From Bacteroidota bacterium (GTDB taxonomy: Bacteria > Bacteroidota > Bacteroidia > AKYH767-A > 2013-40CM-41-45): a stretch of 64,000 nucleotides of DNA. This document shows positions 44,546 to 60,166 of this stretch, in pieces (positions within the stretch are counted from its first letter, which is position 1; each line of letters opens with the position of its first letter). The notes beneath the pieces were generated by a model, which saw only the letters and a program-made list of their open reading frames with translations, searched no databases and was not told the origin of the DNA. Location of the stretch: NCBI GenBank assembly GCA_003389385.1, contig QQVM01000011.1, forward strand, positions 1-64,000. Direction: 5' to 3'. The position numbers and the translations under genes are program-made.

Positions 44546-44673
44546 TAATGAGAAGAGAATCAGACTATATGCTCTCTTGTTTGGTTGCGAAAGGTCTGCT
44601 CAGAAGGCTTGGTGTGAATCTTGCAGCAGCCCTAAAAGCCTTGCCAGTGGCGGGATTCAAAAAAGTTTTCAAC

Positions 44674-44700
44674 AAAGTGTCAAAAAGTGGTAAAAAGTGG
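44674..44700 (+). promoter_or_regulatory. MraZ operator: three AAAGTG[T/G] boxes
   Basis: AAAGTGT (44674-44680), AAAGTGG (44684-44690) and AAAGTGG (44694-44700) are spaced exactly 10 bases apart with 3-base spacers. This is the known MraZ binding pattern (AAAGTG[T/G]N3 direct repeats). It lies 38 bases before the mraZ ATG, over the -33 region of a likely promoter (TACATTAG at 44713-44720, one mismatch), so bound MraZ should repress the dcw cluster. Confidence 0.85.
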
Positions 44701-44738
44701 AAAAAATTCCATTACATTAGCGCAAGCAAAAAATCAGG

Positions 44739-45212
44739 ATGGCTGGCTTTATCGGTGAGTTTCCGTGTACTGTTGACACCAAGGGAAGGTTTCTTTTGCC
44801 TCAGGCTTTGAAAAAACAGGTGCCTGCGAAAGAGCAAAAGCGCTTTGTGGTGCACAGGGGGATTGAAAAACATCTTGTGATTTACACAAACAAGGAATGG
44901 GGCCGGATCAGTGAAGAAGTTAACAGCCTGAATATTTACGTGAGAAAGAATCGCGAGTTCATCAGGAAATTCAACAGGGGTGCGACGGAAATTGATCTGG
45001 ATGGTACAGGACGCCTGCTGCTTCCCAAAGTATTGATGGACTACGCAGGAATTGATAAAGACATTGTGCTCTTTGCTTATGGAAACCGTATTGAAGTCTG
45101 GGCGGAGAAGGAGTATGAAAGGCTTATGAAGGAAGATAACAGTGACTTCGCAAGTCTGGCTGAAGAAGTGATGGGTAAGCCAGGAAAGAACAGAGATGAG
45201 GACTTATCATGA
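44739..45212 (+). CDS. mraZ: transcriptional regulator MraZ
   Basis: 157 residues. Two AbrB-like SpoVT repeats are visible: the first from IGEFPCTVDTKGRFLLPQAL, the second from RGATEIDLDGTGRLLLPKVL. MraZ forms a ring and represses the dcw cluster by binding repeated boxes upstream of itself. The matching boxes lie at 44674-44700. The start is set by MAGFIGEF, and its end overlaps the rsmH start by 17 bases. Confidence 0.96.
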   Translation: MAGFIGEFPCTVDTKGRFLLPQALKKQVPAKEQKRFVVHRGIEKHLVIYTNKEWGRISEEVNSLNIYVRKNREFIRKFNRGATEIDLDGTGRLLLPKVLMDYAGIDKDIVLFAYGNRIEVWAEKEYERLMKEDNSDFASLAEEVMGKPGKNRDEDLS

Positions 45213-46107
45213 ACCGGTCATGCTTCAGGAAAGCGTGGATGCCCTCAGGATTAGGCCCGACGGTGTATATGTGGATGTGACTTTTGGCGGTGGCGGACAT
45301 TCGAATAGGATTCTTGAGCTTCTTGGCTCTAAGGGTCGGTTGGTTGTTTTTGACCGTGATGAAGATGCTGCTGCCAATGTGATTCGCGATAACAGGCTTG
45401 TCTTTGTCCGGCATAATTACCGCTATCTCTACCAGTTCATGCGTTACTATGATTTCCTGAACGTTGATGGATTGTTGGCTGATCTGGGAATATCATCTTA
45501 CCAGATTGATGAGGCCTCCAGAGGTTTTTCAATCCGTCAGGATGCACCACTGGATATGAGGATGAACAGGTTGTCGGGAATGACTGCTGCAGATGTGCTT
45601 AACCAGTATTCTGAAGAGGAATTGTTAAAGGTTTTTAGCGCATACGGAGAGGTTCACAATTCGAAAACGCTCGCTGGCAGGATTGTAAGGGAACGCATGG
45701 TAAGTCCGATCAGCGGAATAGCTGATTTCAGGAAAATGATTGCACCGGTAGCAGATAAAAAAAATGAAACTCAATATTACGCGAAAGTATTTCAGGCTCT
45801 CCGGATAGAAGTGAATGATGAAATGAATTCCTTGAAAGAAATGTTGTCTCAATGCATCCGGGTCCTCAAACCTGGAGGACGTCTTGCAGTGATTACATAT
45901 CATTCCCTTGAAGATCGTGTCGTGAAAAATTTTATTAGCAAGGGAAAGTTTCATGGTGAACTGGAAAAAGATCTGTTCGGAAATATCAGCGGTACTCCAT
46001 TTCAGTCTGTTGTTAAGAAACCTGTCACACCGGGCGAGGAAGAATTAAAAAAGAACCCGCGGTCAAGAAGCGCCAAGCTTCGTATCGCAGAAAGAACCGA
46101 ACACTAA
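45196..46107 (+). CDS. rsmH: 16S rRNA m4C1402 methyltransferase RsmH
   Basis: 303 residues, normal length. YHEPVMLQESVDAL at the start, the SAM site VDVTFGGGGHS, LADLGISSYQIDEASRGFS, and the catalytic-region motif YHSLEDRVVKNF. It methylates N4 of C1402 in 16S rRNA. It is classically the second gene of the dcw cluster. It overlaps mraZ by 17 bases. Confidence 0.97.
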   Translation: MRTYHEPVMLQESVDALRIRPDGVYVDVTFGGGGHSNRILELLGSKGRLVVFDRDEDAAANVIRDNRLVFVRHNYRYLYQFMRYYDFLNVDGLLADLGISSYQIDEASRGFSIRQDAPLDMRMNRLSGMTAADVLNQYSEEELLKVFSAYGEVHNSKTLAGRIVRERMVSPISGIADFRKMIAPVADKKNETQYYAKVFQALRIEVNDEMNSLKEMLSQCIRVLKPGGRLAVITYHSLEDRVVKNFISKGKFHGELEKDLFGNISGTPFQSVVKKPVTPGEEELKKNPRSRSAKLRIAERTEH

Positions 46108-46116
46108 CACAAAAAC

Positions 46117-46509
46117 ATGTCAGAAGAACTGGAAACTGAAAATGATGTGGCTGAGGAGTCTGCTCCACCAAGGAAGAAGAAGAAAAAGAAAGCTTTCCTG
46201 CGTTTTATAAACATCTTTGGCATTATGGACAGAAATCAGATTGTCCATTCAATGCCTTTCATTCTTTTCGTCACTGTTATCATCATCGGATACATAGCCA
46301 ATAGTTATTACGCTGAAAAAATGGTTCGTGAAATTAAAAAGACTAAAAGCGAGCTTAAGGATAAAAATGCCGAGTACATCTATACCAAATCCGAAGTGAT
46401 CACTCATAGCAGACAATCGCAGGTTGCAAAGTCTGTCGAACCTATGGAAATAAAAGAAAGTACTGAGCCGCCAAAACTTATTTTGAAAGAAGATAAAGAA
46501 AAGCCCTAA
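46117..46509 (+). CDS. ftsL: FtsL-like divisome protein
   Basis: 130 residues with a basic, Lys-rich N-terminal tail (PPRKKKKKKAF), a single membrane helix (about residues 46-64) and a C-terminal coiled-coil-like stretch (AEKMVREIKKTKSELKDKNA). In size, topology and position between rsmH and ftsI it corresponds to FtsL, which with FtsQ and FtsB recruits FtsWI. Sequence is too diverged to be sure from motif alone; position decides it. The gap to ftsI is 6 bases. Confidence 0.75.
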   Translation: MSEELETENDVAEESAPPRKKKKKKAFLRFINIFGIMDRNQIVHSMPFILFVTVIIIGYIANSYYAEKMVREIKKTKSELKDKNAEYIYTKSEVITHSRQSQVAKSVEPMEIKESTEPPKLILKEDKEKP

Positions 46510-46515
46510 GCTTCA

Positions 46516-48618
46516 ATGAAAATAAAGAAGGACATATTCTGGAGGATTCACCTTTCATTCATTGTATTGTGCATGATGGGACTGGCTATCATTGTACAAA
46601 TTGTAAGAATACAATTTGTTGAGGGAGAGCAGTGGAAAGAAAAAGCAAATAGCATGACGCTGAAATATTTTCCAATCGAAGCTTCGAGGGGAAATATCTA
46701 TTCGTCAGACATGAGTATGCTGGCCACTTCTGTACCTATGTATGATATCCGGTTCGATACACGTGCGAGCGGTTTAAGTACGGAGTATTTCAAAAAGAAT
46801 TTGGATTCTTTAGCCATCTCTCTCTCATCACTATTTAAAGATAAGTCCTGGCAACAATACCGACAGGAATTAAAGGAAGCTCATGCTGAAAAGCAGAGGT
46901 ACTATTTGGTGAAGAGGAATGTGAATTACGCTGAGCTGCAAAAAATAAAACAGTTTCCTCTATTCCGTGCAGGAAGAAACAAAGGCGGACTACTGGTTGA
47001 ACAAAGAAATGTTCGTGAACTGCCTTATAAGAAGCTTGCAAGCCGTGTGATTGGAACTTTAAGAGATGTCAAGCCGGTTGGAATAGAAGCGGCTTTTGAT
47101 GAAGAACTTAAAGGAACTCACGGGAAAAGACTCATGCAGCGACTTTCAGGAAATGTTTGGATGCCAGTAAGAGACAGGTCGGAAATGGAGCCAAGAGATG
47201 GCAGGGACGTGATTTCTACCATCGACATTCACATTCAGGATGTGGCTGAGCAGTCTCTTGAAGAGCATCTTCGATTTCATAATGCCGATCACGGATGTAC
47301 AATATTGATGGATGTTCAAACAGGAGAAATCAAAGCCATAGCCAATCTCTCCAAAACTGCTGATGGTAATTATGATGAAACTTTCAACTACGCAATAGCC
47401 GAGTCCACAGAACCCGGTTCCACTTTCAAGCTTGCCTCTCTGCTTGCCGCAATGGAAGACGGCTTGGTTAGTCCCGAGGATACTGTTGATGTCGGTTCCG
47501 GTCAGATGAGATTTTACGGACAAATCATGAAAGATTCTCATCCCCCTAAGAAAAGCAGGATGTCCGTTCAGGAAGTATTTGAAACGTCTTCAAATGTCGG
47601 AGTGTCCAAGCTGATAAACCGGCTTTACTTAAAAAATCCTCAGGCATTTGTAGACAGATTGCATTCATTCGGATTGAATGATCGACTGGATCTTCAGATC
47701 GACGGAGAGGGAAAGCCCAGAATTAAAACTGTGAGGGACAAAGATTGGTCGGGTGTTTCATTGCCATGGATGTCAATCGGTTATGAAACGAAACTGACTC
47801 CGCTTCAGATTCTCACCTTCTACAATGCCGTTGCCAACAACGGGAAAATGGTGAAGCCCAAGTTCGTTCGGGAAATTCAACATCACGGAAAAACAGTTAA
47901 GAAATTTCCGACAGAAATATTGCGCGACTCCATTGCCGGCGAAAAGTCAATCATGGCCGCACGCAGAATGATGGAAGGTGTTGTGGAAAGAGGCACTGCT
48001 ACAAGCTTGAACAAATCACCTTATAAAATAGCCGGAAAAACCGGTACGGCCCAAATTGCTAATCCTAAGTATGGCTATGATATAAAGATGCGTTCATACC
48101 AGGCTTCCTTCGTTGGATATTTTCCTGCCGATGAACCCCGATATTCATGCATAGTGGTAGTATATGCTCCATCAAATAACTTCTATTACGGTGGCGCTGT
48201 TGCTGCTCCGATTTTTAAGGAGATTGCAGATAAAGTTTATTCTAACCACCTGGATTTTCAGAACTCACCGCTGCAACAGGATACCAGCATCAATACTCTT
48301 CCTCTTGCTTTGGCGGGAGTTCAAAAGGATACACGCCGTGTGCTCGCCGGAATAAATATTCCCGTGGTTTCGGATGATGATGATGCTAAGTGGATTAACC
48401 CGGTTTTAAAAGAAGATAAATTATTGCTCACAGAAAGAGTTATTTCCATGAAGTCCATTCCCAATGTAGTTGGTATGGGCGCGAAGGATGCCACTTATGT
48501 TCTTGAAAATTCAGGATTGAGAGTGCTGATAGTCGGAAGAGGAGCTGTAATAAGGCAATCCATCGCTCCCGGAAGTAAAATAGAAAGAGGACAAACAATC
48601 ACAATCGAATTAGGCTGA
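46516..48618 (+). CDS. ftsI: peptidoglycan transpeptidase FtsI (class B PBP) with one PASTA domain
   Basis: 700 residues. One N-terminal membrane helix, an N-terminal dimerisation domain, then the transpeptidase: SxxK as S302-T-F-K305, SxN as S358-S-N360, KTG at 508-510. It cross-links peptidoglycan at the septum. The C-terminal 60 or so residues are a single PASTA domain (IPNVVGMGAKDATYVLENSG). The domain order is normal for this phylum. Followed two bases after the stop by murE. Confidence 0.96.
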   Translation: MKIKKDIFWRIHLSFIVLCMMGLAIIVQIVRIQFVEGEQWKEKANSMTLKYFPIEASRGNIYSSDMSMLATSVPMYDIRFDTRASGLSTEYFKKNLDSLAISLSSLFKDKSWQQYRQELKEAHAEKQRYYLVKRNVNYAELQKIKQFPLFRAGRNKGGLLVEQRNVRELPYKKLASRVIGTLRDVKPVGIEAAFDEELKGTHGKRLMQRLSGNVWMPVRDRSEMEPRDGRDVISTIDIHIQDVAEQSLEEHLRFHNADHGCTILMDVQTGEIKAIANLSKTADGNYDETFNYAIAESTEPGSTFKLASLLAAMEDGLVSPEDTVDVGSGQMRFYGQIMKDSHPPKKSRMSVQEVFETSSNVGVSKLINRLYLKNPQAFVDRLHSFGLNDRLDLQIDGEGKPRIKTVRDKDWSGVSLPWMSIGYETKLTPLQILTFYNAVANNGKMVKPKFVREIQHHGKTVKKFPTEILRDSIAGEKSIMAARRMMEGVVERGTATSLNKSPYKIAGKTGTAQIANPKYGYDIKMRSYQASFVGYFPADEPRYSCIVVVYAPSNNFYYGGAVAAPIFKEIADKVYSNHLDFQNSPLQQDTSINTLPLALAGVQKDTRRVLAGINIPVVSDDDDAKWINPVLKEDKLLLTERVISMKSIPNVVGMGAKDATYVLENSGLRVLIVGRGAVIRQSIAPGSKIERGQTITIELG

Positions 48619-48620
48619 TT

Positions 48621-50084
48621 ATGAAAATCCTCAAGGACATCATATACAAAGCGGGAATTGTGGAGATTTCAGGATCTACCGCGATTAATATTATTGATGT
48701 CACTTTTGATTCCAGAAGCGTAAAGGAAGGCAGTTTATTTATTGCTGTAAAAGGATTACAGTCCGACGGCCACAATTTTATCGAGCAGGTAATTGCTTCG
48801 GGAGCTGTTGCAGTGGTGTGTGAAAAACTTCCAGACATACTTCATGATTCAGTTGTTTACATAAGAGTTAACGACAGCTCTCTTGCCTTGGCACAAATCG
48901 CGGCAAATTATCATGGCAATCCAAGCGAAAAACTTAAGTTGATTGGAATTACAGGAACGAACGGGAAAACAACTACGGCGACACTTCTATTCAGCTTATT
49001 CAGGAAACTGGGTTATTCATGCGGATTGCTTTCTACTGTGAAGAATATGATCAACGAGCAGATTATTCCTGCGACTCATACAACTCCTGATCCTCTTAAG
49101 CTTAATGCGCTTCTTTCTGCGATGGTTGACGAAGAGTGTGAATACTGCTTCATGGAGGTCAGCTCACATTCAGTGGTTCAGAACAGAGTGTCCGGCCTGA
49201 ATTTCGCCGCTGGCGTATTCACCAACATCACTCATGATCACCTTGATTATCACAAGACATTCGATGCTTACCTGAAAGCAAAAAAAGGGTTTTTCGACAT
49301 GCTTCCTTCTGGCTCATTCGCCCTTGTAAATTCTGATGACAGAAACAGCAAAGTGATGTTGCAGAATACAAAAGCGAGCAAATATTCTTATGGCCTTCAT
49401 TCAATGTGTGATTACCGCTGCAAGTTGCTTGAAAACGAATTCACCGGCATGTTGCTGAATCTCGACGGACAGGAATTGCATTGCCGACTGGTTGGCTCCT
49501 TCAATGCATACAATATCACTGCAGTGTATGCTGTTGCACGTCTGCTGGGAAAACCAAAAATGGAGGTTCTGACAGAGTTGAGCAACCTTGAACCTGTTGA
49601 AGGAAGATTTGATTATGTGAGCTCTCAGAAAAATATCATTGGAGTTGTCGACTATGCGCATACTCCCGATGCATTGCAAAATGTGCTTAACACAATTAAT
49701 GATGTCCGTTCCGGTAAAGGAAGAATTATAACAATAGTCGGTTGCGGCGGAGATCGCGACGCTTCCAAGCGTCCGGTCATGGCCAAAATCGCTGCTGAAC
49801 TGAGCGATCGAATTATTCTGACCTCCGATAATCCAAGATCCGAAGATCCAGGAGAAATTATTTCCCAGATGGAAAAAGGAATACCTGCGTCTGATTCTGG
49901 AAAAAGTCTGTCGATCGTCGACAGAAAAGAAGCGATAAAAACTGCTGTGGCACTTGCACAACCGGGAGACATCATACTTCTGGCAGGTAAGGGGCATGAG
50001 AAATACCAGGAGATCAAAGGAAAAAGAACTCCTTTCGATGATAAGCAAATACTCAGTGAACTTTTAAAATCCGTTGTGAAATAA
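48621..50084 (+). CDS. murE: UDP-MurNAc-Ala-Glu--meso-DAP ligase
   Basis: 487 residues. ATP loop [15 protein letters not shown]; substrate region [14 protein letters not shown]; the DNPR specificity motif at residues 403-406, which selects meso-diaminopimelate over lysine. It adds the third residue of the wall peptide, so the peptidoglycan is A1-gamma type, typical of this phylum. The stop shares its last base with the mraY start codon (ATAATG), so translation is coupled. Confidence 0.97.
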
Positions 50085-51343
50085 TGCTGTATTACCTGTT
50101 TGAATACATACATCAGAATTTCAGCATGCCCGGAAGCGGAGTGTTTCAGTACATCTCCTTCCGCTCAGCAATGGCATTGATAACCTCATTGATCATTTCT
50201 CTGTTGTTTGGCAAGAGAATCATTCGATTGCTGATGAAAATGCAGATCGGGGAATCTGTGAGAGATCTCGGTCTTGAAGGGCAAAAGGAAAAACAAGGAA
50301 CTCCTACAATGGGCGGACTGATTATCCTGGCTGCGATTCTGATTCCGACTTTCCTTTTTGCACGTCTGATGAATGTTTATGTGATCATCATGATCATTAC
50401 AACTGTGTGGCTCGGCCTCATCGGATTCATTGATGATTACATTAAAGTTTTCAAAAAAGATAAGGCCGGCCTTGCAGGACGGTTTAAAATACTGGGACAA
50501 GTAGGGCTGGGAATCATTATCGGATTTACAATCTATTTCAATCCGCATGTGTTGGTCAAAGAAAAGATTGCTAAGGAGAACATCGTAGTTCAGAAATCTA
50601 CAGGAACAATCATTGATGATATCCGTCAAAGCGAAAACGAATTGTTCTCCAAAACTTCTGTAAAGTCAACCAAAACCACAATTCCATTTGTCAAAAATCA
50701 TGAGTTTGATTATGCTCTTCTGATAAAATGGATCGGGAAAGACTATAAGAAATGGGCCTGGATCATTTTTGTTCCCGTTGTGATACTGATTATAACTGCA
50801 GTCTCTAACGGTGCGAATATCACAGATGGCATAGACGGTCTGGCTACCGGAACATCAGCAATTATTGGAAGCACCCTGGGAATCCTGGCATACGTATCCG
50901 GAAATACCGTGTTCGCGGATTACCTCAACATCATGTATATCCCCAATACAGGCGAGTTGGTTGTATTCATATCTGCATTCGTCGGAGCCTGCGTCGGATT
51001 TCTCTGGTATAACGCATATCCGGCTCAGGTTTTCATGGGAGATACGGGCAGTCTTGCACTCGGAGGAATCATTGCAACATTCGCGATTTGCATCCGAAAG
51101 GAACTTCTCATTCCTATACTGTGCGGAATTTTTCTTGTAGAAAATCTTTCAGTGATGATCCAGGTAAGCTACTTCAAATACACAAAGAAAAAATACGGAG
51201 AAGGAAGAAGAATATTCAAAATGTCTCCTCTTCATCACCATTACCAGAAACTGGGATATCATGAGTCTAAAATCGTGACAAGATTTTGGGTAGTGGGAAT
51301 TGTGCTTGCAGTACTGACTGTCGTAACACTGAAGTTACGCTGA
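50084..51343 (+). CDS. mraY: phospho-MurNAc-pentapeptide transferase MraY
   Basis: 419 residues, about ten membrane helices. Makes lipid I on the cytoplasmic face. Motifs: [59 protein letters not shown], and [14 protein letters not shown]. It is longer than the E. coli enzyme (360) because of an extra loop (about residues 155-220) that is usual in Bacteroidota. Overlaps murE by one base. Confidence 0.97.
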
Positions 51344-51351
51344 TATATGTA

Positions 51352-52707
51352 ATGAAGGAATCTAAAGATATAAATGGACCTGTAGTGATTCTTGGCGCTG
51401 CTGAAAGCGGTGTGGGAGCAGCTATCCTTGCCACAAAGCTCGGACTTGAGGTTTTTGTATCTGATTCCGGAAGCATCAAAGACAATTATAAGAAGCAGCT
51501 TAATCATCACCGGATATCATTTGAAGAAAACGGACATAGTTCCGACCGGATACATGATTCGTCTGTGGTAATTAAGAGTCCCGGTATTCCAGATAATAAC
51601 TCATTGGTAATCTCGCTTAGAGAAAGAGGCATTCCAGTGATCAGTGAAATTGAATTCGCCGGAAAATATACCGATGCTAAAATGATTGGCATCACAGGTA
51701 CTAACGGAAAAACGACAACCACTTTGCTTACTTATCATATTCTCAACAAGGCCGGACTTAATGTAGGACTTGCCGGGAATGTTGGTAAAAGCCTCGCTCT
51801 TCAGGTGGCTGAGTCAAGCTTCGATTATTATGTGCTTGAGCTTTCGAGTTTTCAACTTGATGGAATGTACAGTTTTAAATGTGATGTGGCAGTATTAACC
51901 AACATCACTCCTGATCATCTTGACCGATATGATTACAAACTGGAGAACTATGCCCGCTCAAAATTCAAAATCACAAATAACCAGGGACCTGATGACTCGT
52001 TCATTTATTGTGCCGATGATCCGATTACCCATCAGTACATGATGAAAGAAGAAATTAAATCTCACATGTTTCCATTTTCCATTAAAAAAAAATTGGAAGA
52101 GGGAGCGTGGCTTGAAAATGATCAATTAATAATTCACACACATAAACAACACTACTCTATGCTTATTCATGAACTTGCTCTCCAGGGAAAACACAACCTG
52201 TACAACTCCATGGCCGCTGGAATTTCCGCGCGCGTACTCGAAATCCGCAAGGAAATTGTCAGAGAAAGCCTTTCCGATTTCAAAAATGTGGAACATCGTC
52301 TTGAACACGTAGCCACTGTTCACGGAATAGATTTTGTCAATGACTCAAAAGCTACTAATGTCAACTCAACCTGGTATGCTCTCGAAAGTTTTAACAGACC
52401 GGTCATTCTCATCCTAGGCGGAGTCGATAAAGGAAACGACTATTCAATGCTTGCGGAACTTGTGAAAGAAAAGGTGAAGGGAATTGTCTGTCTTGGCAAG
52501 GATAATAAGAAAATCCGTAAAGCTTTTGCGGAGCAGGTTTCACAAATCGTGGAAACTGAAACTGCTGATGCCGCTGTAAAGGCTGCTTATGCAATGGGTA
52601 AAAAAGGTGATGTAGTTCTGCTTTCTCCTGCTTGCGCAAGTTTCGATCTCTTCGAAAACTATGAAGATCGCGGAAGACAATTCAAGATTGCTGTGAAATC
52701 GCTATAA
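51352..52707 (+). CDS. murD: UDP-MurNAc-Ala--D-Glu ligase
   Basis: 451 residues from the ATG at 51352, 8 bases past the mraY stop; the reading frame opens earlier, inside mraY, but without a plausible start. Motifs: VVILGAAESGVGAA at the N-terminus (Rossmann-like UDP-binding), [24 protein letters not shown], and NDSKATNVNSTWYAL, with the C-terminal block LLSPACASFDLFENYEDRG. It adds D-glutamate to UDP-MurNAc-Ala. Confidence 0.96.
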   Translation: MKESKDINGPVVILGAAESGVGAAILATKLGLEVFVSDSGSIKDNYKKQLNHHRISFEENGHSSDRIHDSSVVIKSPGIPDNNSLVISLRERGIPVISEIEFAGKYTDAKMIGITGTNGKTTTTLLTYHILNKAGLNVGLAGNVGKSLALQVAESSFDYYVLELSSFQLDGMYSFKCDVAVLTNITPDHLDRYDYKLENYARSKFKITNNQGPDDSFIYCADDPITHQYMMKEEIKSHMFPFSIKKKLEEGAWLENDQLIIHTHKQHYSMLIHELALQGKHNLYNSMAAGISARVLEIRKEIVRESLSDFKNVEHRLEHVATVHGIDFVNDSKATNVNSTWYALESFNRPVILILGGVDKGNDYSMLAELVKEKVKGIVCLGKDNKKIRKAFAEQVSQIVETETADAAVKAAYAMGKKGDVVLLSPACASFDLFENYEDRGRQFKIAVKSL

Positions 52708-52717
52708 ATCATACCTC

Positions 52718-53881
52718 ATGCAGACTACCTGGCTGGATAAATACTTCAAGGGAGACCGCACCATTTGGGTGATCGTATTCCTGCTGTCAATACTTTCTCT
52801 GCTGGCTGTGTACAGCAGCACTGGAACATTGGCTTACAAATACCAGAGCGGAAATACCGAATACTATCTCTTCAAGCATCTTGTCATTTTGTTTTTTGGC
52901 CTGGTCCTTATGTACGCCGCCCACAAAGTGAAATACATATATTATTCACGCTTGTCCGCTATCGCTTTAATCATCACTATTCCGCTCCTGCTGATCACTT
53001 TGCTCGGTGGAACCAGTCTGAATGAAGCGAACAGATGGCTTACACTTCCGGTAATTAACATCACATTCCAGACATCTGACTTTGCAAAACTTGCTCTGAT
53101 TATGTTTGTTGCCAGGATGCTGTCCAAGAAGCAGGACGAAATAAAAAGTTTTAAATCAGCATTTCTCCCAATCATTCTTCCTATTCTCCTGGTTTGCGCA
53201 TTGATTCTTCCTGCAAATTTTTCAACTGCAGGGATTCTCTTCATATCCTGTTGCTTCCTGATGTTTATTGGACGGATCAACATGAAATTCATTATGGCAC
53301 TGCTCGGATTGGCAATTGTGGGTTTCGTCTTATTCGTTCTTGTAGCAAAAGCCATAGGTAAAACCGGAAGGATTGACACATGGTCAGCACGTATCGAAAG
53401 GTTTGTGAACTCGTCTGAAGAAGATAACTATCAGGCAGAGCAGGCAAAGATCGCTATAGCTTCAGGAGGAATACTGGGTAAATTTCCGGGTAACAGCATA
53501 CAGAGGAATTACCTTCCTCATCCGTACTCTGATTTTATCTATGCCATCATCATTGAAGAGTATGGTTTGATAGGAGGTATCGGAATTATTGTTTTATATC
53601 TCGTGCTCTTTGTAAGAGTTATTCGATTTTTACATCACAGCCCAATGGCCTTCGGAACATTGCTTGCAGTAGGTTGTGCATTCAGCCTGGTATTCCAGGC
53701 AATGATAAACATGGCCGTAGCAGTAAACCTCTTCCCGGTAACAGGGCAGCCACTACCCATGTTAAGCATGGGCGGAACGTCAATTTGGTTCACCAGTATT
53801 TCTATCGGAATTATACTCAGCGTTAGCCGTCAGGTCGAAAGGGAAAAGAAAGAAGGAGGAACTGAACTTGCTCTGGCCTGA
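52718..53881 (+). CDS. ftsW: septal peptidoglycan polymerase FtsW
   Basis: 387 residues with about ten membrane helices of the SEDS family. FtsW/RodA motifs: GGTSLNEANRWLTLP, LPHPYSDFIYAIIIEEYGLIGG, and NLFPVTGQPLPMLSMGGTS. The position between murD and murG indicates FtsW rather than RodA. It polymerises lipid II with FtsI as partner. Its last 14 bases overlap the murG start. Confidence 0.95.
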   Translation: MQTTWLDKYFKGDRTIWVIVFLLSILSLLAVYSSTGTLAYKYQSGNTEYYLFKHLVILFFGLVLMYAAHKVKYIYYSRLSAIALIITIPLLLITLLGGTSLNEANRWLTLPVINITFQTSDFAKLALIMFVARMLSKKQDEIKSFKSAFLPIILPILLVCALILPANFSTAGILFISCCFLMFIGRINMKFIMALLGLAIVGFVLFVLVAKAIGKTGRIDTWSARIERFVNSSEEDNYQAEQAKIAIASGGILGKFPGNSIQRNYLPHPYSDFIYAIIIEEYGLIGGIGIIVLYLVLFVRVIRFLHHSPMAFGTLLAVGCAFSLVFQAMINMAVAVNLFPVTGQPLPMLSMGGTSIWFTSISIGIILSVSRQVEREKKEGGTELALA

Positions 53882-54998
53882 AATAAAAGTGATCATCAGC
53901 GGAGGCGGAACCGGTGGACATATTTTTCCGGCCATCTCGATTGCAAATGCGCTTATGGAACTGAACAGCAGAAATAAAATACTGTTCGTTGGAGCTCAGG
54001 GCCGCATGGAAATGGAAAAAGTTCCTGCAGCCGGGTATGAAATTATTGGCCTGAAGATAAAAGGCATCAGAAGGAAGTTGAGCCTGGAGAATTTTAAACT
54101 GCCGTTTCTTCTCATTTCAAGTTTATTTAAATCAGCTAAAGTGATAAAGAGATTTAGTCCGGATGTTGCAGTCGGTGTGGGTGGCTATGCCAGCGGACCA
54201 TTGCTTTTCATGGCAGGCTTGAAGAATGTCCCATCTCTCATCCAGGAGCAAAATTCATATGCCGGAATTACAAACCGCCTTCTCGCTAAACGAGCTTCCA
54301 AAATTTGTGTTGCGTACGATGGTATGAATAAATATTTTCCTCAAGAAAAAATTGTTCTGACGGGCAATCCGGTCAGAAAACAAATCAGGGAAATGTCCAT
54401 GGATAAGGCTTCGGCGCGGGCAAGTTTTGGCCTTGACCCCGATCGAAAAACTTTGCTGGTAATCGGTGGTAGTCTGGGCGCTGCAAGCATTAATAAGTCT
54501 GTCCTCGCAGGCTTGAATAAATTATCAGAAAAAGGCATTCAACTTATTTGGCAGACAGGAAAATCAGGTGCTTATTTTATTGATAAAGCCGGAAATCCGA
54601 ATGAAATAAAGAGACACATCAGTCCATTTATTGAAAGAATGGATCTCGCATTCGCAGCTTCAGATTTCATCATCTCAAGGGCTGGAGCCGGTTCCATCTC
54701 CGAATTGCAGATTGCCGGAAAACCTGTCATTCTTGTGCCTTCTCCTAATGTGGCCGAAGACCATCAGACTAAAAATGCAATGGCATTGGTGGAGATGAAT
54801 GCTGCCCTTCTGGTTAAGGACTCTGAAGCTGAGATGGTTCTGATCGATAAAGCAATTTCAGTTTCGGAAAGTGAAGCGCTCTGCAGGTCATTGTCAGAAA
54901 ATATCAAGAGTCTTGCAATTTTCGATTCCGACTTAAGAATAGCAAAAGAAGTGTACCGCTTGGCCGGAGTAATTGAAGGATCTGTTTCAAAGAATTGA
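53868..54998 (+). CDS. murG: lipid II synthase MurG
   Basis: 376 residues from a TTG start. An AGGAGG at 53854-53859, 8 bases before it, is one of the clearest ribosome binding sites in the window, although it lies inside ftsW. A GTG at 53889 is the only other option and would cut into the first strand. Motifs: VIISGGGTGGHIFPAISIA, LIQEQNSYAGITNRLLAK, IVLTGNPVR, and ISRAGAGSISELQIAGKPVILVPSP. It adds GlcNAc to lipid I. Confidence 0.95.
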   Translation: MLWPEIKVIISGGGTGGHIFPAISIANALMELNSRNKILFVGAQGRMEMEKVPAAGYEIIGLKIKGIRRKLSLENFKLPFLLISSLFKSAKVIKRFSPDVAVGVGGYASGPLLFMAGLKNVPSLIQEQNSYAGITNRLLAKRASKICVAYDGMNKYFPQEKIVLTGNPVRKQIREMSMDKASARASFGLDPDRKTLLVIGGSLGAASINKSVLAGLNKLSEKGIQLIWQTGKSGAYFIDKAGNPNEIKRHISPFIERMDLAFAASDFIISRAGAGSISELQIAGKPVILVPSPNVAEDHQTKNAMALVEMNAALLVKDSEAEMVLIDKAISVSESEALCRSLSENIKSLAIFDSDLRIAKEVYRLAGVIEGSVSKN

Positions 54999-55005
54999 AA
55001 AGCTG

Positions 55006-56415
55006 ATGACGAAATTTGATGATATCAGGTTTGTTTATTTCCTTGGAATAGGCGGTATCGGCATGTCAGCTCTGGCTCGTTTCTATATGGCAAGAGGAGT
55101 TTCCGTCAGCGGATATGATAAAACACGAACGGCTCTTACTGATGAATTGGAGTCTGAAGGAATGAAAATTTCCTATGATGAAGCTGCTGAAAAGCTTCCT
55201 GATTTTATACTTGATTCAAAGAACAATAAAAATTCAATTCTGATAATTTATACACCCGCTATCCCTTCCGATCATGCGGGGAAAAACTGGCTCATCAGTC
55301 AGGGCTTCAAATTATATAAACGCTCTGAAGTGCTTGGTCTGATTGCAAGTAAGTATTACACTGTTGCTGTTGCCGGTACGCATGGGAAAACAACCACCTC
55401 GTCAATGATCGCCCACATGTTGGTGCACGCAGGAAAACGCTGTACGGCATTTCTTGGCGGTATACTTAAAAATTACAACTCAAACTTTCTGGACAACACA
55501 AAAGGTGAAGGAAGTCACATATTGGTTGCTGAAGCTGACGAATATGACAGGTCATTTTTGACACTTTTTCCTGATGTTTCAATCATCACTTCCATGGACC
55601 CAGACCATCTTGACATATACGAAGATGCTAAATTCATGGAGGAGTCTTACCGGCTTTTCGCCTCACAGCTAAAAGACAAGGGAAAACTGATATATAAGAA
55701 AGGTCTTCCTCTTTCTAATACGTCTGCAAAAAGCAGTGCATATTCGCTGAAGACCGATGCAGATTGTTACCCTTCTGATGTAAGAATAGAGAGAGGTCGA
55801 TATTATTTCGACTGGAATGAAGGAGATGTTAGGTTAAAGGATCTCAGTTCCGGATTACCTGGATTGCACAATGTGGAAAATGCTGTTGCCGCAATTGCAG
55901 CCTGCAGACATCTTGGACTTACTGAAGAAGAGATACGTTCTGGAATCACATCTTATTCAGGTGTAAAACGAAGATTTGAAAGGATACTTGACACTGACCG
56001 GTTTACATACATTGACGATTATGCACATCATCCGGAAGAATTAAGAGCAAGCATTAGTTCTGCAAGAGAGATGTATCCCGGGAAGCATATTACAGGAATT
56101 TTTCAACCGCACCTGTATAGCAGGACACGCGATTTTGCTGACGGATTTGCAAAGAGCCTTTCTCTGCTTGACAGCCTCATTCTGATGGATATTTATCCGG
56201 CAAGGGAAAAACCAATACCTGGAGTCACTTCAGAGTTAATTTTCAATAAAGTACCCCTTGAGAATAAAATACTGGTTTCAAAAGATAATTTGATTGGCGA
56301 ACTGAATACGGAAGGTATTGAAGTCCTTCTTACACTTGGTGCCGGTGATATTGACTTATTTGTTGAACCGATAAGGGATCTTCTCTTGTTATCAAAACAA
56401 CAGAAACATGAATAA
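55006..56415 (+). CDS. murC: UDP-MurNAc--L-alanine ligase
   Basis: 469 residues from the ATG at 55006, 7 bases after the murG stop. An upstream TTG would add 11 residues and overlap murG by 26 bases, which is less likely. Motifs: FLGIGGIGMSALARF, VAGTHGKTTTSSMIAHML, EADEYDRSFLTL, DDYAHHPEELRASI, FQPHLYSRTRDF. It attaches the first L-alanine to UDP-MurNAc. The stop overlaps the ftsQ start by 8 bases. Confidence 0.97.
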   Translation: MTKFDDIRFVYFLGIGGIGMSALARFYMARGVSVSGYDKTRTALTDELESEGMKISYDEAAEKLPDFILDSKNNKNSILIIYTPAIPSDHAGKNWLISQGFKLYKRSEVLGLIASKYYTVAVAGTHGKTTTSSMIAHMLVHAGKRCTAFLGGILKNYNSNFLDNTKGEGSHILVAEADEYDRSFLTLFPDVSIITSMDPDHLDIYEDAKFMEESYRLFASQLKDKGKLIYKKGLPLSNTSAKSSAYSLKTDADCYPSDVRIERGRYYFDWNEGDVRLKDLSSGLPGLHNVENAVAAIAACRHLGLTEEEIRSGITSYSGVKRRFERILDTDRFTYIDDYAHHPEELRASISSAREMYPGKHITGIFQPHLYSRTRDFADGFAKSLSLLDSLILMDIYPAREKPIPGVTSELIFNKVPLENKILVSKDNLIGELNTEGIEVLLTLGAGDIDLFVEPIRDLLLLSKQQKHE

Positions 56416-57220
56416 TGGAATTGTTCTTAAAAAATCCGTAAGGATCGCGCTCTGGATTTCACTTCTATTCGCATTTATCATATCAGTCGGCTTCACTGAT
56501 TCGAGACAAGCTAACATGAAATGTTCTGAGCTCATGATTTCTGTCAATGATTCAACCGGACAATCATTTGTGGAAGCCCGCGATATCAGGCAAATCATAC
56601 TCGATAAATTCGGAGAAATTGAAGGACAGACGCTGAGTAATATTAACATATCTCTGTTGGAAAAAATCATTGATAATAACCCCTTCGTTGCGGATGCAGA
56701 AGTATTTTCATCCGTTAATGGAAAGCTTAACATTGAAGTGACTCAGCGCAAACCTGTCGTCAGGGTTTTCAATATCAAACAGGAGAGCTTTTACATTGAT
56801 GATCAGGGAGAATTCATGCCTTTGTCAGAGAAATATACAGCCAGAGTTCCGGTGGCAAACGGCTTCATACCGGAGCAGGAAAGTGATATCAATCTGCTGA
56901 TAAAAAAAGAATTTAATTCGCCTGATACTACCGGAAAAAAATCCGCCATATCAAGGGTGTATGCTATAGCGGATTTTTTAAACAGAAATGATTTTTGGAA
57001 TGCTCAAATTGAACAGATTTACATTAACGCTTCAGGTGAAATCGAACTCATTCCAAGAGTCGGCTTACATACCATCATCATTGGCAATACAGAAGGGCTT
57101 CAGGAAAAATTCGACCGCCTGTACACCTTTTACAATGATGGCTTGAATAAAACGGGTTGGAATAAATACAGTACAATTAATCTCAAATTCAAAGACCAGG
57201 TGGTCTGCACAAAAAAATAG
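56408..57220 (+). CDS. ftsQ: cell division protein FtsQ
   Basis: 270 residues. One N-terminal membrane helix (about 11-30), a POTRA domain (SVNDSTGQSFVEARDIRQI, NPFVADAEVFSSVNGKLNIEVTQRKPVVRV) and a C-terminal periplasmic domain. Sequence is diverged, but order and position between murC and ftsA make the call solid. Linked tightly to ftsA, one base after its stop. Confidence 0.9.
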   Translation: MNNGIVLKKSVRIALWISLLFAFIISVGFTDSRQANMKCSELMISVNDSTGQSFVEARDIRQIILDKFGEIEGQTLSNINISLLEKIIDNNPFVADAEVFSSVNGKLNIEVTQRKPVVRVFNIKQESFYIDDQGEFMPLSEKYTARVPVANGFIPEQESDINLLIKKEFNSPDTTGKKSAISRVYAIADFLNRNDFWNAQIEQIYINASGEIELIPRVGLHTIIIGNTEGLQEKFDRLYTFYNDGLNKTGWNKYSTINLKFKDQVVCTKK

Positions 57221-57221
57221 T

Positions 57222-58526
57222 ATGGAAAATAACGACATAGTTACAGGTCTGGATATTGGCACCACGAAAATCTGCACCATAATCGGCAGAAAGAATGAGT
57301 TTGGGAAGATCGATATCCTCGGATACGGAAAGTGCGAATCACTGGGCGTGACCAGAGGGGTTGTTACCAACATAGTTCACACAATCAATTCCATTAAGGC
57401 TTCTGTGGAAGAAGCAGAGTTGAAGGCTGGAGTGAAGGTCAGTGATGTATATGTCGGTATCGCAGGCCAGCATATCAAAAGTCTTCAGCATCGTGGAATG
57501 AGAACAAGAACCACTCTTGATGATGAAATCAGCCAGATGGATATCGATGCGATTGTGGAAGATATGTATCGCCTGGCTATGCCTCCGGGAGAAGAAATCA
57601 TTCATGTGATTCCTCAGGAGTATATCGTTGATAACGAGCAGGGAATTAAAAATCCGATCGGTATGTCTGGCATTCGCCTCGAAGCAAATTGCCACATCAT
57701 AACCGGACAGGTTACAGCCGCGAAAAATATCGGAAAATGCGTGAAGCGGGCCGACCTTGAATGCAATGGCTTGTTCCTTGAGCCATTGGCATCCTCAGAA
57801 GCTGTGCTAACCGAAGAAGAAAAAGAAGCGGGTGTTGTGCTGGTTGATATCGGTGGCGGAACAACAGACATAGCCATTTTTCAGGATGGCGTCATCCGGC
57901 ATACTGCTGTGATTCCATTCGGGGGTAATGTTATCACTGATGACATCAAGGAAGGCTGTACAATTATTCGCAGCCATGCAGAACTTTTGAAATTAAAATT
58001 CGGTTCTGCTCTGGCCAGCGAGAACCAGGAAAATGAGATTGTTGCCATACCCGGACTTCGCGGCAGAGAACCAAAGGAAATTTCAGTGAGAAATCTTGCC
58101 AGCATCATCCAGGCAAGAATGGAAGAGATCATCGAACATGTCTATTACGAAATCCGAAATTCAGGTTATGAGAAAAAGCTAATAGCAGGAATAGTAATCA
58201 CAGGCGGTGGAGCACAGTTGAGGCATATCGTTCAACTGGTTGAATTTATAACAGGAATGGACACACGTATCGGTTATCCTAACGAGCATCTCGCAAAGGG
58301 AATGGATGAACTGAAAAGTCCGATGTTCGCCACCGGCGTAGGTCTTGTCATCAAAGGCTTCCAGGAAATGAGCAAGAAAAAGAAGGATAATAAATCAGCC
58401 GAAGCACTGGATGAAATTGTCGGTAGTCTTGGTGAAAAAAGAGGGAAAGAAATGAGACAACCTTCATTCTTCGATAAGATCAAGGCCATGCTCACAGAGG
58501 ACGATCAGGATACCAAGATTGAATAG
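57222..58526 (+). CDS. ftsA: cell division protein FtsA
   Basis: 434 residues of the actin fold. Motifs: IVTGLDIGTTKICTIIG, an SHS2 insertion, VLVDIGGGTTDIAIF (phosphate loop), and a C-terminal amphipathic helix (MRQPSFFDKIKAMLTED) that tethers FtsZ to the membrane. It follows ftsQ by one base. Confidence 0.97.
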   Translation: MENNDIVTGLDIGTTKICTIIGRKNEFGKIDILGYGKCESLGVTRGVVTNIVHTINSIKASVEEAELKAGVKVSDVYVGIAGQHIKSLQHRGMRTRTTLDDEISQMDIDAIVEDMYRLAMPPGEEIIHVIPQEYIVDNEQGIKNPIGMSGIRLEANCHIITGQVTAAKNIGKCVKRADLECNGLFLEPLASSEAVLTEEEKEAGVVLVDIGGGTTDIAIFQDGVIRHTAVIPFGGNVITDDIKEGCTIIRSHAELLKLKFGSALASENQENEIVAIPGLRGREPKEISVRNLASIIQARMEEIIEHVYYEIRNSGYEKKLIAGIVITGGGAQLRHIVQLVEFITGMDTRIGYPNEHLAKGMDELKSPMFATGVGLVIKGFQEMSKKKKDNKSAEALDEIVGSLGEKRGKEMRQPSFFDKIKAMLTEDDQDTKIE

Positions 58527-58569
58527 TAAACATTTTTTGAAAAGAACTTAACTTATAAAACAAAACTTC

Positions 58570-60105
58570 ATGGAATTTGATTTGCTGAAAGAAAAAACCT
58601 CAATCATCAAGGTAATTGGTGTTGGAGGCGGCGGGAGCAACGCTGTAAATCACATGTACAGGCAGGGCATCAAAGGTGTTGAATTTGTAGTGTGCAACAC
58701 AGATGCTCAGGCGCTTGAAATGTCGCCTGTGCCAACAAAACTTCAACTTGGATTGAGCCTGACAGATGGCAGAGGAGCCGGCTCAATTCCCGAAGTAGGG
58801 CGAAATGCTGCGATTGAAAATATTGAAGACCTTAGAAAGGTATTACTGGAAAACACCAAGATGGTTTTCATCACTGCCGGAATGGGCGGAGGTACAGGAA
58901 CCGGTGCAGCTCCCATCATCGCGCAAACCGCAAGGGAGATGGGAATTCTTACTGTCGGCATTGTTACAATCCCATTCGATTTCGAAGGCAAGAAAAGAAA
59001 ACATCAGGCAGACGAGGGAATCGAAGCGTTGAAGAACAGTGTAGATACAATCCTGATCATTCGCAATGAAAAACTCCGGGAAATGTTTGGCAATCTCCGT
59101 CTCTCCGAAGCTTTTTCACATGCCGACAACATTCTCACCACTGCTGCGAAAGGAATTGCTGAAATTATCACAGTGACTGGATATATCAATGTGGATTTCG
59201 AAGATGTGAAAACTGCTGTCCACAACAGTGGTGTCGCAATCATGGGATCTTCAGTTGCTGAAGGTGAAAACCGCGCGACAAAAGCTGTGGAACTTGCATT
59301 GGCATCTCCGCTTCTGAATGACAACAACATCAAAGGCGCCAGATACATTCTCATGAATATCGCCTCGGGTTCCCGTGAAGTAACAATGGATGAAATCGGT
59401 GACATTACTGATTATATCCAGGATCAGGCTGGCCTTACCGCCGATATCATCTGGGGAAATTGTCATGATGAGTCTTTGGGCGACAAACTTTCAGTTACTA
59501 TAATAGCAACCGGGTTCAAGACGCGTGCAGAAATAGGCCACGAAGTAGAACAGGCCAAGAGCTCTGCAAAAACAGTTCGTGTTCTTGGTGTAGATGAACC
59601 GGTATCTGAGAGCAAGATTTCAAGTGAAGAGAAAGCGAAAGGAAAGGACCAGGAAATTTTCGAACCTGTGCTCATTAGGAAAAATGATTCAAACAACCCG
59701 CCATCAGGACAAAATGATGGTTCAGACAGAACCTTCGAGTTCAGTTTTTCAAACGAGCAAAGTGCACCTGAAAAAAACGTTTCTAAATCTGGAAATGAAA
59801 CCGATCAGGATTCGCCAGTAGTTTATGATCTTCATTCACATTCTCTTGAAGATCCTACAGAAGAGCAATTCAGAAAAACCCGTGACAGAATTGCGAGACT
59901 GAAAGCTCTCAATTACAGGATCGGTGCCTCTGGAAGCATCAGTGACATGGAGAAGGAGCCGGCTTATAAAAGGAGAAATGTAAAGCTCGAAAATGTTCCA
60001 CATTCTAGCGAGAATCCTGTTTCCAGATATACTCTGTCCTCTGAGGATGAAAAAAAAACTGAAATAAAACCACATAACTCATTCCTGCATGATAATGTGG
60101 ATTAA
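58570..60105 (+). CDS. ftsZ: cell division protein FtsZ
   Basis: 511 residues. Tubulin-like core: GVGGGGSNAVNHM, GGGTGTGAAPIIAQ (T4 loop), the T7 region INVDFEDVKTA. A disordered linker of roughly 150 residues follows (rich in Ser, Glu, Asp and Lys, from about residue 335), and the protein ends HNSFLHDNVD, the conserved tail that binds FtsA in this phylum. The linker is longer than in E. coli. Separate from ftsA by 43 bases. Confidence 0.98.
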   Translation: MEFDLLKEKTSIIKVIGVGGGGSNAVNHMYRQGIKGVEFVVCNTDAQALEMSPVPTKLQLGLSLTDGRGAGSIPEVGRNAAIENIEDLRKVLLENTKMVFITAGMGGGTGTGAAPIIAQTAREMGILTVGIVTIPFDFEGKKRKHQADEGIEALKNSVDTILIIRNEKLREMFGNLRLSEAFSHADNILTTAAKGIAEIITVTGYINVDFEDVKTAVHNSGVAIMGSSVAEGENRATKAVELALASPLLNDNNIKGARYILMNIASGSREVTMDEIGDITDYIQDQAGLTADIIWGNCHDESLGDKLSVTIIATGFKTRAEIGHEVEQAKSSAKTVRVLGVDEPVSESKISSEEKAKGKDQEIFEPVLIRKNDSNNPPSGQNDGSDRTFEFSFSNEQSAPEKNVSKSGNETDQDSPVVYDLHSHSLEDPTEEQFRKTRDRIARLKALNYRIGASGSISDMEKEPAYKRRNVKLENVPHSSENPVSRYTLSSEDEKKTEIKPHNSFLHDNVD

Positions 60106-60144: not shown

Positions 60145-60166
60145 AGGGCCCCCGCAAGGGGGCTCT
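60145..60166. terminator. hairpin after ftsZ, probably the dcw terminator
   Basis: GCCCCC (60148-60153) pairs with GGGGGC (60158-60163) around a GCAA tetraloop, with outer pairs extending it to 60145-60166. No clean T-run follows (TCATTTG), so termination may be partial. Confidence 0.55.

Follow-up and report, generated by a model that had tools for sequence, protein, structure and literature searches.

A predicted MraZ operator abutting a conserved DnaA-like element at the promoter of the division and cell-wall cluster in Bacteroidia

The promoter of the division and cell-wall (dcw) cluster in the DNA analysed here (a stretch of 64,000 nt from a member of Bacteroidota, below called the window) combines a three-box MraZ operator with a DnaA-like element, AAGTTTTCAACA, which directly abuts the first of the boxes (Table 1). 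The explanation which accounts best for this arrangement is that the element is a second input to the dcw promoter, independent of MraZ, and most likely a weak DnaA box.

Table 1. Predicted features of the mraZ promoter and of the cluster behind it (positions in the window)
Feature	Position	Strand	Basis
DnaA-like element AAGTTTTCAACA	44663..44674	+	read from the sequence; conserved in relatives; recurs at other genes
MraZ box 1, AAAGTGT	44674..44680	+	letters of the sequence; consensus position over 113 class promoters
MraZ box 2, AAAGTGG	44684..44690	+	letters of the sequence, pattern match
MraZ box 3, AAAGTGG	44694..44700	+	letters of the sequence, pattern match
Likely -7 promoter element TACATTAG, TAnnTTTR variant	44713..44720	+	12 nt after box 3; read from the sequence
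mraZ, 157 aa	44739..45212	+	Pfam MraZ PF02381, E 7.5e-29; solved MraZ relatives
Remaining genes of the cluster (rsmH to ftsZ)	45196..60105	+	Pfam / NCBIfam
Terminator-like hairpin after ftsZ, 9 pairs, 7 of them G-C	60145..60166	+	hairpin scan

The operator itself had been recognized by the first-pass annotation, and its finding was correct: three boxes with the spacers CAA and TAA follow each other at a period of exactly 10 bp across 44674-44700. An MraZ operator should have at least two direct repeats with a GTGG-type core at this period; here there are three, the core being GTGG in boxes 2 and 3 and GTGT in box 1. The pattern AAAGTGN4AAAGTGN4AAAGTG was matched exactly at 44674-44699, the sole triple in the window, while dinucleotide shuffles of the window gave a mean of 0.15 matches even with up to three mismatches allowed. 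It is the triple, and not the pair, that lies beyond chance, because the pair AAAGTGN4AAAGTG, present in the organism's own 3.36-Mb genome at this place only (two overlapping matches), was equalled by the reversed-pattern pair with likewise two matches. No fourth box was found at the place ahead of box 1 where the 10-bp period would put it. The end of box 3 is separated by 38 nt from the ATG of mraZ, and by sequence and by place, immediately before mraZ and the dcw cluster which it heads, the three repeats are the predicted operator of MraZ. Taken alone, such boxes are ordinary.

The comparison with relatives, proposed in the first-pass annotation, was made with loci collected by MraZ and rsmH matches, whereby the class of the window was taken as Bacteroidia, in part from the promoter type. 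An MraZ match was present in 372 of 395 genomes drawn from the phylum and in 39 of 42 drawn from the order, the class draw by rsmH had a match in 287 of 295 genomes, and rsmH was found in 17 of the 22 class or phylum genomes lacking an MraZ match. From each of the phylum mraZ, order mraZ and class rsmH draws 30 loci were used, to which 80 further mraZ regions (71 from the phylum listing and 9 from the order listing), 60 further rsmH regions and 6 class loci from genomes without an MraZ match were added. All 140 loci of the mraZ set had a recognisable mraZ, and 62 of them belonged to the window's class. With one locus per genome this resulted in 156 class genomes, 148 with mraZ and 8 without, a sample which is non-random, as the genome listings favour the best-scoring genomes.

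Conservation of the operator in the relatives possessing mraZ was evident: at least two strong boxes were present in 133 of the 148 class mraZ promoters (shuffles: mean 0.7, maximum 2), and the box finder detected three boxes in 114 promoters, four in 14, two in 17 and a single one in 3. TAnnTTTR, the promoter element downstream of the boxes, occurred 4-20 nt after the last box in 103/148 class promoters and 11-12 nt after it in 90/148, compared to 9.0 and 1.7, respectively, when only the sequence behind the boxes was shuffled; the window's own variant, TACATTAG, is not matched by this pattern. Since the -7 element follows the last box by 11-12 nt, MraZ bound at the boxes would cover the -33 slot, and the earlier proposal that the boxes lie over the -33 region holds, a TAnnTTTR-type element being located downstream of them. 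A -33 element is expected 17-23 nt before the -7 element, and TTG was found at this distance in only 7 of 103 class mraZ promoters. A sigma-70 promoter of the TTGACA type was rejected for the window's mraZ after a consensus scan found no plus-strand site from 44440 to mraZ, and TTGACW paired with a -10 element is absent from 141 of the 148 class promoters. In the other classes of the phylum the order is different: in 63 of 78 promoters TTGACW/-10 is followed by the boxes downstream, none of the 78 has boxes on the upstream side, and the other 15 lack a promoter of this type. The MraZ boxes of E. coli, reportedly those of Eraso 2014, have GTGG cores every 10 bp, as in the window, but in MG1655 (NC_000913) they are located downstream of a TTGACA/-10 promoter, in contrast to the window, where they precede the -7 element. 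Thus, the MraZ box is general, while its position relative to the promoter is lineage-specific. The form of the boxes cannot be called that of Mollicutes, as had been done at first, since E. coli has AGTGGGAAATTGTGGGGCAAAGTGGG and most of the promoters sampled in Bacteroidota have the same box.

Autorepression by MraZ is predicted, and likely, at this promoter. The reports summarized in PMC8475190 do not agree on whether MraZ lowers or raises expression: it is described there as a repressor in E. coli, and its loss in Mycoplasma genitalium raises the cluster, while its overexpression in M. gallisepticum went along with more FtsZ. The latter result would fit an MraZ which activates, standing in for the missing -33 element, and so would the rarity of TTG at the expected distance and the location of the boxes upstream of the -7 element in the window's class only; with repression recorded in both E. 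coli and M. genitalium, activation is considered unlikely here.

The genes behind mraZ are typical of a division and cell-wall cluster. The rsmH gene, identified by Pfam, overlaps mraZ by 17 nt; murE, mraY, murD, murG, murC, ftsA and ftsZ all exceeded the NCBIfam cut-offs, the genes at 46516-48618 (penicillin-binding type) and 52718-53881 (FtsW/RodA type) gave matches only below the cut-off, and an NCBIfam search with 56408-57220 gave no match. Control of the whole cluster from the mraZ promoter is plausible, because all genes from mraZ to ftsZ are co-directional with gaps of at most 43 nt and a terminator-like hairpin stands behind them, although the scan as a whole gave such hairpins no more often than expected by chance (15, compared to 13.5 in shuffles). 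Six class genomes (G190, G249, G347, G351, G371, G394) have rsmH and no MraZ match genome-wide; therefore, the regulator can be lost with the cluster retained.

The 9-mer core of the element abutting the operator, TTTTCAACA (44666-44674), shares its last base with MraZ box 1 and has a single mismatch to TTWTNCACA (C6 to A), while copies with C6 occur at related sites. The consensus AAG-TTWTYAACA is located just before box 1 in most class promoters, and a logo anchored on box 1 alone also shows it, blurred by a one-base shift. Within 200 nt upstream of mraZ, on either strand, TTWTYMACA was present in 129 of the 148 genomes and in 42 of the 46 families (shuffles: mean 12.5 genomes, maximum 20), and the stricter TTWTCMACA in 94 genomes and 33 families (shuffles: mean 3.9, maximum 10). 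The neighbouring 200 nt contained the two motifs in only 11 and 5 of 146 genomes, respectively, the reversed motif was found in 5 of 148, and three altered motifs in 3, 7 and 0. In the other classes of the phylum TTWTCMACA and TTWTYMACA occurred in 9 and 12 of 78 promoters (shuffle means 1.7 and 4.5), and 7 of the 9 were of the C6 form. On the minus strand the C6 form may be confused with an MraZ box; the A6 form alone was present in 69 of the 148 class genomes, compared to 2.5 in shuffles. Some lineages lack the element, e.g., five of six genomes of family f9 and both genomes of f104.

The geometry is constant as well. In 95 genomes a plus-strand copy adjoins box 1 at a distance of -2 to +1 nt (-1 in the window), and 62 of the 81 copies measured start 46-48 nt before the -7 element (47 in the window). 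Among the 95 abutting copies the core is preceded by G in 76% and has A at position 6 in 96%; of 108 copies at the mraZ slot, 65 have CA at positions 5-6, 27 have TA and only 4 have CC. Near mraZ the orientation of the element and its distance also vary, with copies on either strand, and in family f2 the same slot is occupied by TGTGGAAAACTT and TGTTGAAAACTT, i.e., by C6 beside A6 forms in one family. In seven loci of family f3 (L008, L009, L011, L068, L074, L075, L085) the plus strand has a perfect TTATCCACA about 170-200 nt ahead of mraZ. In most of them it faces a site of the TGTGGATAA type closer to the gene, at about 80-95 nt; the TGTGGAWAA on the minus strand in this family may be an isolated MraZ-like box and not a DnaA box.

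The element is also found apart from MraZ. Two of the eight class rsmH promoters without mraZ (G347 and G351) keep TGTTGAWAACTT about 60 nt before TAnnTTTA, and it is absent from the other six; of these eight genomes, six, including G347 and G351, have no MraZ match genome-wide, and G529 and G661 were judged from the sequence of the locus only. The 12-mer AAGTTWTCMACA is not enriched genome-wide, as its counts were not above those of the reversed control in any of the five genomes analysed from the window's family. Its 26 sites in these genomes were intergenic in 20 cases by a mechanical ORF test, with the recurrent neighbours mraZ (three genomes), HU (three), uracil-DNA glycosylase ung (two), a basic SWIB-domain protein (three) and a SAM-hydrolase gene (three), the remaining sites having no recurrent neighbour. 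In the organism's own genome dnaX is divergent to HU. The compared HU and ung intergenic regions were otherwise 61-69% identical over the aligned columns. The SWIB sites have C6, and the one in the own genome is exactly TTATCCACA. Upstream of HU, three loci of family f1 (L193, L200, L204) and one of f5 (L314, genome G134) have two DnaA-like boxes whose starts are exactly 20 bp apart. Most likely, the element is independent of MraZ and not merely a part of its site, because it is kept in two of the eight mraZ-less promoters and is present at the HU, ung, SWIB and SAM-hydrolase genes.

Judged from its letters and its recurrence, AAGTTTTCAACA is a putative DnaA-type box, an assignment we hold with somewhat better than even confidence; the main doubt comes from position 6, which has A and not the consensus C. 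Either A6 is tolerated by the DnaA of the class, or the weakness of the site serves a purpose, or its ligand is another protein. The DnaA of the organism is a clear DnaA and has GGKDHATV at the place of GGRDHTTV in Bacillus subtilis (8btg); its recognition helix reads DHATV, compared to DHTTV in the latter. According to PMC4674748, domain IV of a cyanobacterial DnaA binds an origin fragment with TTATCAACA, albeit less well than perfect boxes.

Close direct pairs of DnaA-like boxes were found in 14 of the 20 class genomes searched. Genome G394 has six boxes within 250 bp (L299, C1:2665745-2665994), three TTATCCACA and three TTATCAACA, at 2.67 Mb, and its GC skew has opposite signs in the samples at 2.52 and 2.64 Mb, the one at 2.85 Mb being discordant; the cluster, near though not exactly at the skew switch, is a candidate replication origin. 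Five TTATCCACA boxes within about 170 bp are present in G095 (L308, C1:1941001-1941168); the skew switch is far away from this place (1.94 Mb), an origin there is not supported by the GC skew, and the cluster is perhaps a DnaA-titrating or regulatory site. In G261 (L310, L317) and G002 (L311), both of family f2, A6 and C6 boxes are mixed between ftsA, named in G261 by resemblance, and ftsZ, near locus position 1500, which makes direct control of ftsZ by DnaA possible in these two genomes; the GC skew of G261 was uninformative on the origin. One TTATCCACA and one TTATCAACA precede dnaN in G563, and in G134 both dnaB and HU are preceded by paired TTATCAACA, which have the 20-bp spacing of starts also seen at HU in the window's family. 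The other close pairs are inside genes or beside unrelated genes. In the organism's own genome the stretch around dnaA (L150) contained no DnaA-like box and the origin was not found; two inverted boxes at C2:201073 could not be shown to be one.

The strongest alternative ligand would be a regulator of palindromic sites (GTTWTYAAC) other than DnaA, which would control division, nucleoid and replication genes together. The G before the core and the A6 in most abutting copies make GTT-N3-AAC symmetrical, and the occurrence in both orientations is consistent with a palindrome as well. However, C6 copies break the symmetry and yet occupy the same slot in family f2 and stand beside A6 copies in the clusters, and the fit to TTWTNCACA at the other positions would have to be a coincidence, which makes such a regulator rather unlikely. 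An additional contact of MraZ, i.e., a degenerate or inverted MraZ box, is improbable: its reverse complement, TGTTGAAAA, is similar to GTGGNAAA, and the overlap of an MraZ site with a DnaA box at mioC of E. coli (PMC4446571) indicates that sites of the two kinds may be alike, but the element is out of the 10-bp register, has both orientations and several distances, is kept without mraZ in two genomes and, in the stretches inspected at other genes, is not accompanied by a second GTGG copy at 10-bp spacing. Still less probable is an UP element, the promoter element contacted by the alpha subunit of RNA polymerase, for which the A/T-richness and the constant distance to the -7 element would speak and against which stand the conserved G and C positions, the reversed copies in f2 and f3 and the tandem copies 20 bp apart at HU.

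Besides the MraZ boxes of E. coli described above, three known systems come closest to the arrangement in the window. The MraZ operator of Mollicutes, with direct repeats of AAAGTG[T/G] according to PMC8475190 (citing Fisunov 2016), has the box, the repeats and the place upstream of mraZ in common with the window, which differs from it by the phylum, the TAnnTTTR-type promoter and the DnaA-like element abutting box 1. According to PMC4446571 (citing Eraso 2014), the DnaA box of the mioC promoter in E. coli is overlapped by a binding site of MraZ, and mioC is reduced about 12-fold when MraZ is overexpressed. MraZ and DnaA-type sites thus touch at mioC as the predicted ones do in the window; however, mioC is an origin-adjacent gene, while in the window it is the division cluster itself, with the arrangement present in most sampled families of the class. 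This precedent makes the window's arrangement less foreign and at the same time keeps alive the alternative that MraZ touches the element. In Caulobacter ftsZ is controlled by DnaA, and in B. subtilis DnaA binds at the promoter of ftsL (both according to PMC8203912); these cases likewise have a DnaA-type site upstream of division genes, but the putative site of the window abuts an MraZ operator and its position 6 is mostly A. Among the papers listed by a literature search, none had a conserved DnaA-like element attached to an MraZ operator for this phylum.

With MraZ as a repressor and DnaA as the ligand of the element, the promoter might function as follows. An MraZ oligomer on the GTGG cores, one helical turn apart, would cover the -33 region and thereby the contact made there, which would decrease the transcription of mraZ and of the dcw genes behind it. 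The putative weak DnaA box, 47 nt away from the -7 element on its upstream side, touches MraZ box 1, so that DnaA and MraZ could be bound side by side or in competition, with DnaA either activating or competing with MraZ. The expression of the dcw cluster would thereby be tied to the state of the replication initiator.

A more far-reaching possibility, which we regard as tentative and as falling short of an even chance, is that in most of the class the dcw promoter works as a fixed switch with two inputs, the MraZ operator and, fused to it, a DnaA box kept weak on purpose. DnaA charged for initiation would displace or override MraZ at this switch, and the same DnaA regulon would include HU, dnaX, ung, dnaB and dnaN, as well as ftsZ itself in some lineages. 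If true, the switch would act as a transcriptional clock by which division is coupled to the initiation of replication. The coordination of these two processes has been described as poorly understood, and a DnaA-like site joined to the MraZ operator and found near mraZ in nearly all families sampled offers a concrete promoter where it is testable via nine bases. The location of the MraZ operator directly against a DnaA-like site in most of the relatives examined suggests a testable link between replication and division.
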